From contig DF820466.1 in NCBI GenBank assembly GCA_000739535.1, positions 5,144 to 69,143 of the forward strand: a DNA stretch of 64,000 bases. The letters are read 5' to 3'. Numbering within the stretch: position 1 is the stretch's first letter; each line of letters opens with the position of its first letter. The notes beneath the pieces are model-generated. The model ran no database searches. It saw only the letters and a program-made list of their open reading frames with translations, and had not been told where the DNA came from. This stretch comes from Candidatus Vecturithrix granuli. GTDB taxonomy: Bacteria > Moduliflexota > Moduliflexia > Moduliflexales > Moduliflexaceae. The position numbers were made by a program, and so were the translations under genes. Positions 17,538-19,168 of this stretch are shown here, in pieces.

Positions 17538-17609
17538 GCGGGAATAGCTCAGTGGTAGAGCATCGCCTTGCCAAGGCGAGGGTCGCGGGTTCAAATCCCG
17601 TTTCCCGCT
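17538..17609 (+). tRNA. tRNA-Gly (GCC)
   Basis: A complete cloverleaf of 72 nt: acceptor GCGGGAA/TTCCCGC with discriminator T, D arm, anticodon stem TCGCC/GGCGA with loop TTGCCAA (anticodon GCC), and T arm GCGGG/CCCGT-type with TTCAAAT loop. The 3' CCA is not encoded. Confidence 0.95.
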
Positions 17610-17618
17610 TTTTTTTGA

Positions 17619-17694
17619 GGCGACATACCCAAGTGGTTAAGGGGGCGGTCTGCAAAACCGCTATGCTCCGGTTCAAATCCGGATGTCGCCTCCA
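17619..17694 (+). tRNA. tRNA-Cys (GCA)
   Basis: Cloverleaf with acceptor GGCGACA/TGTCGCC, anticodon stem GCGGT/ACCGC, loop CTGCAAA (anticodon GCA) and T arm CCGG/CCGG with TTCAAAT. Unlike the tRNA-Gly just upstream it encodes its CCA (17692..17694). Confidence 0.95.
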
Positions 17695-17739
17695 AAAATG
17701 TTCTGCCGGGGTGGCGGAATTGGTAGACGCCTGGGACTT

Positions 17740-18444
17740 AAGTGAATTTGAGTGCCTGAAAGGAAACTTTCAGAGTAGAATCCTTCAAATTCGGGGAAAC
17801 CTGTAAAATGGCAATCCCGAGCTAAGCCCGGTTGATGATTTAGTTTTGCTTGCTTTGAGGGTTTTCTCTTATTAATTCATGAGAAAATACACAGAACAGA
17901 AATTAAGAGAAGCTGTAAAAGCAAGCAGATCAATTCGTCAAGTTCTTAAAAAGTTAGGTCTTGCAGAAGCAGGAGGGAATTATTCAACAATACAGGAAAA
18001 AATCACTGAATTGAATCTTGATACAAGTCATTTCCTCGGAAAAGGCTGGAAAAGAGGATTTTCAGAGCCAGTCTTTCAGCCAAAACCATTAGAAGAGATT
18101 TTGGTGGTAAATTCTTCTTATCAAAGTTATAAGTTAAAACGAAGATTAATAGAAGAAGGAATAAAAGAAGAATGCTGTGAAAGATGTGGAAGGAGTTCCT
18201 GGAATGGAGAAAAGATTCCTGTAGAACTGCATCACAAGAATGGGAATCGAAAAGATAATCGTTTAGAAAATCTTGAATTCTTGTGTCCTAACTGTCATGC
18301 TCAAACAGAAACTTATAGAGCAAAGAATGCCGGGAAAGTGTAGAGACCTGACGGAGGATGCCTAAAGTTTTTAACTATGGTGAAGGGAAGGTCCAGACCA
18401 CAAACACAACAATTTTTGTGGCGACGAAAGTCGTAGTTGGTAAG
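17740..18444 (+). ncRNA. Group I intron (IC3-like) in tRNA-Leu(UAA)
   Basis: 705-nt self-splicing intron candidate. The 5' splice site follows a U, which pairs with G in a guide sequence GAGTGCC (17750..17756; U-G pair at the splice site, one mismatch further in), and the intron ends in G (18444). Core segments typical of tRNA introns are present: GGGGAAACC, then GGCAATCCCGAGCTAAGCC (P4/P5 side), GTAGAGACCTGACGG (P7 side) and AAGGTCCAGACCAC near the 3' end. P6 can be drawn as CCCGG (17827..17831) with CCGGG (18330..18334), placing the HNH gene in the P6 loop. The subgroup is inferred from these motifs and the insertion site. Confidence 0.9.
17879..18343 (+). CDS. Intron-encoded HNH homing endonuclease
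   Basis: 154-aa protein encoded wholly within the group I intron. The C-terminal half is an HNH nuclease with zinc-holding cysteines: CCERCGRSSW, then the catalytic ELHHKNGNRKDNRLENL and FLCPNCHAQT. The N-terminus (RKYTEQKLREAVKASRSIRQVLKKLGL) looks like a small helical DNA-binding region. It presumably cuts intron-free tRNA-Leu genes to spread the intron. The frame ends with TAG inside the intron core: its last codons coincide with the proposed P6 3' strand, J6/7 and the start of P7. Codon use is much more A-rich (AGA, AAA, GAA) than in neighbouring genes, pointing to separate origin. No strong ribosome-binding site precedes the ATG. Confidence 0.9.
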   Translation: MRKYTEQKLREAVKASRSIRQVLKKLGLAEAGGNYSTIQEKITELNLDTSHFLGKGWKRGFSEPVFQPKPLEEILVVNSSYQSYKLKRRLIEEGIKEECCERCGRSSWNGEKIPVELHHKNGNRKDNRLENLEFLCPNCHAQTETYRAKNAGKV

Positions 18445-18506
18445 AAAATCCCATGGGAATTTATTCCCGTACCGGTTCGAGTCCGGTCCTCGGCACCATG
18501 AAAATG

Positions 18507-18543: not shown

Positions 18544-18550
18544 ATCTGTG

Positions 18551-19168
18551 ATGTCACAACGTTACCCCATACCAGCCCAAACAATCCGTACGGAAATCAA
18601 CATTAAACGTTCGCGCTTTATTGCGACGGTCGGCCGCGCCGAGACTGTCGAAGCGGCGCGCGCGTTTATTCAGCAGATTCGCGCTGAGATGCCGGATGCG
18701 TCGCACCATGTCTATGCCTTTCGCGTGGGCTATGGCAGCAGCGTCCAGGAAGGCTTATCAGATGACGGCGAACCGGCAGGCACCTCCGGCAAACCGACCA
18801 TGGCGGTTTTACGTGGCGCTGATTTGGGAGATGTGGTGCTTGTGATCACTCGCTATTTCGGAGGAACTAAACTGGGCACCGGCGGATTGGTACGCGCCTA
18901 CAGCCTCGCCGCCAAAGAAGTCCTCGACATTCTGCCCAGGATCGAGAAAATCTCAACTGTCAGCGTGGAAATCCCTGTGCCCTACGCTCATTACGATCAG
19001 GTGAAACGTCTTCTGCCGGATTATCAGGCCACAATTCTTGATGAGATTTTCGCAAAAGATGTTACGTTGAAACTCAGTATCCCGCAAGATCTCTTTGGAC
19101 CGTTTTCCGCCCATATTCGTGAATTCACGCTTGGCAACATCGCCCCCATCCTCGCGTCTGAATCTTAA
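18551..19168 (+). CDS. yigZ: YigZ/IMPACT family protein
   Basis: 205-aa protein with the IMPACT signature: SDDGEPAGTSGKP, then VLVITRYFGGTKLGTGGLVRAY (residues about 76-120), and the C-terminal DUF1949-like part. The family shares a fold with ribosomal protein S5 and elongation factor domains; its bacterial function is not firmly known. ATG 18551 directly follows an in-frame GTG at 18548, and either could be used. It begins right behind the tRNA terminator and probably uses read-through or a promoter within the terminator region. Confidence 0.9.
   Translation: MSQRYPIPAQTIRTEINIKRSRFIATVGRAETVEAARAFIQQIRAEMPDASHHVYAFRVGYGSSVQEGLSDDGEPAGTSGKPTMAVLRGADLGDVVLVITRYFGGTKLGTGGLVRAYSLAAKEVLDILPRIEKISTVSVEIPVPYAHYDQVKRLLPDYQATILDEIFAKDVTLKLSIPQDLFGPFSAHIREFTLGNIAPILASES

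Follow-up and report, generated by a model that had tools for sequence, protein, structure and literature searches.

Textbooks present the group I introns in the tRNA-Leu(UAA) gene (trnL) of cyanobacteria and plastids as "ancient". These introns, that of Anabaena among them, belong to subgroup IC3 (Kuhsel, 1990; Xu, 1990; both as cited in PMC3984707). The locus described here lies in a window of 64,000 nucleotides from Candidatus Vecturithrix granuli (contig DF820466.1, positions 5,144 to 69,143); coordinates below refer to this window. Its intron resembles the cyanobacterial and plastid introns in host gene, in insertion between U34 and A35, in the P1–P9 core and in the terminal G, and it is detected by models built from the cyanobacterial ones. 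It differs from them in carrying an HNH endonuclease gene in P6, in its place outside the cyanobacterial clade and in its non-cyanobacterial host.

A related arrangement in a bacterial tRNA gene is that of I-Ssp6803I, a homing endonuclease of the PD-(D/E)xK class. It is encoded in a cyanobacterial tRNA-fMet intron (Bonocora and Shub, 2001, as cited in PMC3984707). In both cases a group I intron that interrupts the anticodon loop contains the endonuclease gene, but the tRNA is a different one and the nuclease fold differs, that of the window being HNH. SegB, a homing endonuclease found at the tRNA loci of T-even phages, makes its cut within tRNA genes (PMC13096335); the HNH family described here is likewise tied to phage tRNA loci, whereas SegB is a free-standing GIY-YIG enzyme with no intron. 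According to a 2014 review by Hausner and co-authors, the phage introns then known were all in protein-coding genes, despite the many tRNA genes of phages (PMC3984707). The open-access papers searched contained no description of phage trnL introns, of trnL introns that carry an HNH gene, or of any mobility gene for trnL(UAA) introns. We consider it quite likely that a homing IC3 intron of phage lineage, driven by the HNH gene in its P6, invaded the chromosomal tRNA-Leu(UAA) gene of this bacterium.

The split tRNA-Leu(UAA) gene

The 5′ exon (17705–17739, forward strand, as are all features given here) ends in GGGACUU, the last three nucleotides being C32, U33 and U34, and the 3′ exon (18445–18498) encodes the CCA end. 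Both halves were located by eye; ARAGORN and Rfam at default cutoffs saw only tRNA-Gly and tRNA-Cys at the locus and missed tRNA-Leu. These two genes, tRNA-Gly(GCC) and tRNA-Cys(GCA), occupy 17538–17694, and a gene of the YigZ/IMPACT family follows at 18548–19168. After splicing the anticodon loop would have the regular seven nucleotides, CUUAAAA, closed by GGGA/UCCC. By similarity search, a single tRNA-Leu with the anticodon UAA was found in the genome, the other tRNA-Leu genes having CAA and UAG. Since it is apparently the sole UAA-anticodon tRNA, its spliced form would be needed for the life of the cell.

The nearest sampled relative (G001), from another genus of the same family, has the same cluster: a zinc-ribbon gene, tRNA-Gly, tRNA-Cys, tRNA-Leu and a YigZ-family gene. 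Its trnL gene is intronless and reads GGGACTT/AAAATCCCATGGGAATTTATTCCCG, with the slash at the junction, where the sequence is identical to that of the window exons. Because of this identity the intron can be placed at exactly 17740–18444, 705 nt. The first-pass annotation had put the boundaries at 17739/17740 and 18444/18445 and had described the spliced tRNA as complete with CCA, and in both respects it was accurate. The order of the cluster is the same in two further genomes (G002 and G003) of the same taxonomic order, whose orthologous trnL genes are also intronless. Thus the intron is absent from all three other genomes of the phylum that were examined. The source assembly is listed with 10.75% contamination; the trnL locus is nevertheless syntenic with that of G001. 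No prophage genes were seen adjoining the trnL locus, which is chromosomal.

Structure and class of the intron

The elements of a group I ribozyme are arranged around the open reading frame. P1 is formed by CUU/AA (17737–17741, the slash marking the splice site) with UUGAG (17748–17752), which places the pair U17739–G17750 at the 5′ splice site, and the same pairing occurs in phage and cyanobacterial introns. P2 is the hairpin CUGAAAG-GAAA-CUUUCAG (17756–17773), seen in the sequence, the alignment and the covariance-model structure. P3 pairs AUCCUUC (17780–17786) with GGAGGAU (18353–18359), and P4/P5 with J4/5 extends over 17790–17821, from UUCGGG (17790–17795) to CCCGAG (17816–17821). The two strands of P6, CCCGG (17827–17831) and CCGGG (18330–18334), enclose a loop filled by the open reading frame, an arrangement also seen in the phage introns L161 and L224. 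P7 pairs GACCU (18345–18349) with AGGUC (18389–18393), and the last base of the intron is G18444. P3 and P7 stay paired through compensatory changes. P3 is GCUCUC/GGGAGC in cyanobacteria, CUCCUC/GGGGAG in phages and AUCCUUC/GGAGGAU in the window; the corresponding forms of P7 are GACUC/GAGUC, GACUA/UAGUC and GACCU/AGGUC.

The general Rfam model, RF00028 (Intron_gpI), gave 26 bits against a gathering cutoff of 50, and its alignment ran wrongly into the open reading frame. For this reason two half models were built from cyanobacterial trnL introns only: R1, from the 5′ exon to P6 (20 introns), and R2, from J6/7 to the 3′ exon (18 introns). R1 matched 17731–17828, including P4/P5, with 59 bits (E 7.5e-14), the runner-up in the 64 kb having an E-value of 0.97. 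R2 matched 18338–18451, including the 3′ strand of P7, with 58.3 bits (E 2.5e-13), and this was its sole match at E up to 10. Since the trnL half models succeed, the failure of RF00028 is read as a limit of that model, probably caused by the HNH gene in P6. The RF00028 cutoff was rejected as a test of group I membership in view of the misalignment; as the sole screen, the Rfam cutoff would wrongly have discarded the intron.

The intron is therefore a group I intron of subgroup IC3 and of the tRNA-Leu(UAA) type, as shown by the P3–P8 core, the U–G pair, the terminal G and the site between U34 and A35. The first-pass annotation, which had recognized the split gene, the U–G pair and the terminal G, is borne out by the matches to both halves and by the covariation in P3 and P7. 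The Infernal search that it proposed was negative with the general model and positive with the trnL models (E about 1e-13 each).

Distribution in bacteria

Matches to R1 were obtained in 21 of 385 genomes from across bacteria. Outside cyanobacteria, trnL introns were found among these 385 genomes only in the genome of the window and in one other family, two genera of which carry them (L372 and L378). Bacterial lineages can thus hold such introns, which would be compatible with vertical inheritance within the phylum and loss in the relatives of the window. We regard this as highly improbable, since the introns of L372 and L378 lack an open reading frame and do not group with that of the window in the ribozyme tree, all three other genomes of the phylum are intronless, including the syntenic one of the same family, and the AT-rich open reading frame is unlike the neighbouring genes.

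The cyanobacterial trnL introns measured 212–302 nt, and none among 146 cyanobacterial genomes had an HNH gene of the window's family in a trnL intron, in agreement with the first-pass statement that the cyanobacterial introns mostly lack a gene. One cyanobacterium (L396, genome G402) has a free-standing HNH gene, 39% identical, and the small contig that bears it also has a tRNA-Leu(UAA) gene without an intron.

Other tRNA genes in these genomes are split as well. IC3 introns between positions 35 and 36 of tRNA-Asn(GUU) occur in the window's genome (L001, G000:C20:797307-797558) and in several other bacterial families sampled (L370, L375, L376, L379, L380, L383, L386 and L390). In two introns of the tRNA-Asn type (L381 and L382), a different HNH frame immediately precedes the ribozyme core, a position suggestive of the P1 loop. 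A group I intron between positions 35 and 36 of tRNA-Lys(CUU) is common to both genera of the family (L002, G000:C18:787502-787729; L055, G001:C3:149319-149606); it seems to belong to another subgroup, because R1 misses both copies. A further strong group I intron in G001 (L054, G001:C59:119001-119232; 72.5 bits) has no recognisable flanking tRNA.

The HNH endonuclease gene

The open reading frame (17879–18343) encodes a protein of 154 amino acids with an HNH motif and a Cys4 zinc site (C100, C103, C136 and C139). Pfam HNH_3 and HNH both score above their cutoffs, and the match to phrog_10822 is full-length (residues 2–152, E 2e-48), so that the HNH gene of the first-pass annotation is an intact member of a known phage family. 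The final codons form the 3′ strand of P6 and J6/7, and the stop codon UAG (18341–18343) is the UAG of GUGUAGAGAC, inside J6/7. Because the gene sits in the peripheral P6 loop and ends within J6/7, protein and ribozyme share a few bases. No good Shine-Dalgarno sequence is evident before the ATG. An AlphaFold2 model (pLDDT 87) has three N-terminal helices followed by the HNH zinc finger. A fold search gave weak HNH matches only, the best being EcoKMcrA (E 0.009), and a sequence search of the PDB gave no match for the family.

The G + C content at third codon positions is 0.23, compared with 0.50–0.57 in the neighbouring genes and 0.31 in the related phage gene (L288); the base composition of the open reading frame is foreign. 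Duplication within the genome was rejected as its source, the only other family members there being a 41% pair on contig C9. That locus (L008, G000:C9:140231-140926) is one frame of 342 amino acids with two HNH modules, each about 41–42% identical to the HNH of the window, outside tRNA genes. A plasmid origin was likewise discarded, a search of plasmids with the HNH having given no match. When genome contigs were scanned, the only match lay in a Rubrobacter bin, within a tRNA array that resembles those of phages.

Homing endonuclease genes frequently decay once they are fixed. The element could accordingly be immobile now, with an intron that splices and an HNH protein that has lost its homing activity or acts as a maturase. 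We think this rather unlikely, given that the open reading frame is full-length and keeps every invariant residue, H119, N131 and H140 of the HNH motif as well as the four zinc cysteines. Relative to the phage copy L288, dN is about 0.39 and dS is saturated near 2, with 64, 32 and 85 differences at codon positions 1, 2 and 3. Judged by these substitutions, purifying selection has acted on the gene since its divergence from the phage copy, a constraint that may date from the phage lineages.

Phage tRNA-Leu introns and their endonucleases

Relatives of the HNH were found in 219 phage records. In two sets of viral loci of the family, a tRNA gene lay within 600 nt in 108 of 124, compared with 66 of 555 random intervals, these being taken from other, tRNA-rich viral contigs. 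IC3 cores are frequent in viral contigs, and many among the matches listed are tRNA genes, including tRNA-Leu(UAA) genes split at the same position as that of the window. At least 16 phage trnL introns contain an HNH gene of the phrog_10822 family. It lies in P6 in the sense orientation in L161, L177, L253 and L224, in P6 in antisense in L118, L133, L239 and L356, and in the P1 loop in L143, L169, L236, L312, L318, L321, L335 and L336. In about a dozen more cases it lies just outside the intron.

Among the closest in architecture are L161 and L288, on one contig (IMG/VR 3300009008_000023), and L224, from the 595-kb huge phage LR756511.1. They share with the window the tRNA, the position, the type of ribozyme, the HNH family, the sense orientation in P6 and the stop codon UAG inside J6/7. 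They differ in that they are located in phage tRNA arrays and not in a bacterial chromosome, and their HNH proteins are 40–50% diverged. Near the tRNA genes on the contig of L161 there is also a gene for an RtcB-type tRNA ligase (L161 39-704).

Introns lacking an open reading frame, and unannotated in the records, were found in the trnL genes of the 735-kb LR756501.1 and of a cultivated jumbo phage, Agrobacterium phage Atu_ph07 (L226, MF403008.1, about 113250-112800). The trnL intron is not mentioned in the Atu_ph07 paper (PMC6102473). The record of Microcoleus phage My-WqHQDG annotates a tRNA-Arg of 286 nt, and therefore phage tRNA introns have not gone wholly unnoticed.

Most members of the HNH family are free-standing beside many types of tRNA, and within or near trnL introns the gene is found in P1, in P6, in antisense and downstream. 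One may then ask if it simply parasitizes phage tRNA arrays and settles in any neutral spot, its position in the trnL intron being unrelated to intron mobility. There is also one looser neighbour, L091 (916-1150; IMGVR_UViG_3300032087_006453), where a phage tRNA-Lys(UUU) gene has an IC3 intron and a free-standing HNH of the window's family lies about 400 nt downstream. In the parsed associations of HNH and intron, however, the intron is always at the trnL GACTT junction, with no clear case in any other tRNA, as would be expected if the DNA target at trnL(UAA) were shared. The parasite explanation seems to us an unlikely one.

Phylogeny and origin

In the HNH tree the HNH of the window and that of L161/L288 are sisters (SH-aLRT 99, 60% identity), and the HNH of L224 entered P6 separately. 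By parsimony a minimum of 11 switches into or out of introns is required, and of 22 among all location classes, but the tree is poorly resolved, and its starred branches force fewer changes than these minima of 11 and 22. The number of switches indicates that the nuclease joined trnL introns many times. As the HNH proteins of the window and the phage are only 60% identical, the donor itself was evidently not sampled.

The ribozyme tree, built from about 200 columns, has the cyanobacterial introns as a 100/100 group. The intron of the window lies opposite, with the phage introns and the two bacterial trnL introns that lack an open reading frame, so the tree suggests an affinity with phages. Its closest relative by identity is a phage intron, L233 (80%), and not L161. 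In AU tests the window as sister of the cyanobacteria was not rejected (p 0.227; log-likelihood 18.4 lower when forced together), and the pairing of the window with L161 is compatible but unproven (p 0.474). The ribozyme tree, though suggestive, was accordingly not taken to prove that the donor was a phage. As the AU tests decide between neither placement, the case for phages is founded chiefly on the HNH tree and on the shared architecture. A tree against tRNA-Leu introns, the second check put forward by the first-pass annotation, thus places the intron outside the cyanobacterial clade and gives no firm pairing with L161.

The AU result would also be compatible with an intron derived from a cyanobacterium or a plastid, with later acquisition of the HNH gene, as the wording of the first-pass annotation suggests, and the cyanobacterial trnL introns do share its insertion site and subgroup. 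This origin is nonetheless quite improbable. The cyanobacterial clade excludes both the window and the phage introns, and the CGGGG/CCCGAG form of P4 is of the phage type. Moreover, the sister of its HNH lies inside a phage trnL intron, in the same place in P6, and an HNH-bearing trnL intron was present in 0 of the 146 cyanobacterial genomes.

The empty orthologous sites in relatives, the foreign third-position composition and the presence of phage relatives in other replicons indicate that the intron was recently transferred. Horizontal transfer, as proposed in the first-pass annotation from the presence of an HNH-bearing intron next to genes that do not look cyanobacterial, is thus upheld, with the amendment that the evidence points to phages rather than cyanobacteria as the reservoir. 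The active homing that it also proposed is kept here as a prediction.

Proposed homing and its implications

In the phage-derived intron that we favor, the ribozyme would fold in the precursor tRNA around the unspliced anticodon loop, with P1 formed by CUU/AA and UUGAG and a core from P3 to P8. If the transcript is spliced at 17739/17740 and 18444/18445, as predicted from the conserved anatomy, the UAA anticodon loop would be restored and the host thereby left unharmed. The HNH protein would most likely cut or nick the anticodon region of trnL(UAA) genes that lack the intron, after which repair templated by an intron-bearing copy would insert the intron into the cut gene. The donor was likely a phage with such an intron. 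Within phages, HNH genes of the phrog_10822 family in tRNA arrays have moved into trnL introns more than once, into various peripheral loops and in both orientations, or lie beside them.

The ribozyme is of the known IC3 trnL type, and the HNH belongs to a phage family already known. No account of the two together, or of phages with trnL introns, was found in the open literature searched. The tRNA-Leu missed by ARAGORN and by the Rfam cutoffs as run, and the unannotated intron of Atu_ph07, expose a gap in annotation. Phage trnL introns, and the one HNH family found inside or next to them, offer candidates for the vehicle and the enzyme by which trnL introns spread; the mobility and target site of these introns thereby become directly testable. 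More tentatively, and with some doubt, it may be proposed that, in phage tRNA arrays, nucleases of the phrog_10822 family target tRNA genes, have become associated with trnL introns time and again, in various loops and orientations, and propel these introns into bacterial chromosomes. If so, phages would account for the patchy occurrence and presumed horizontal transfer of trnL introns, perhaps also of those of cyanobacteria.
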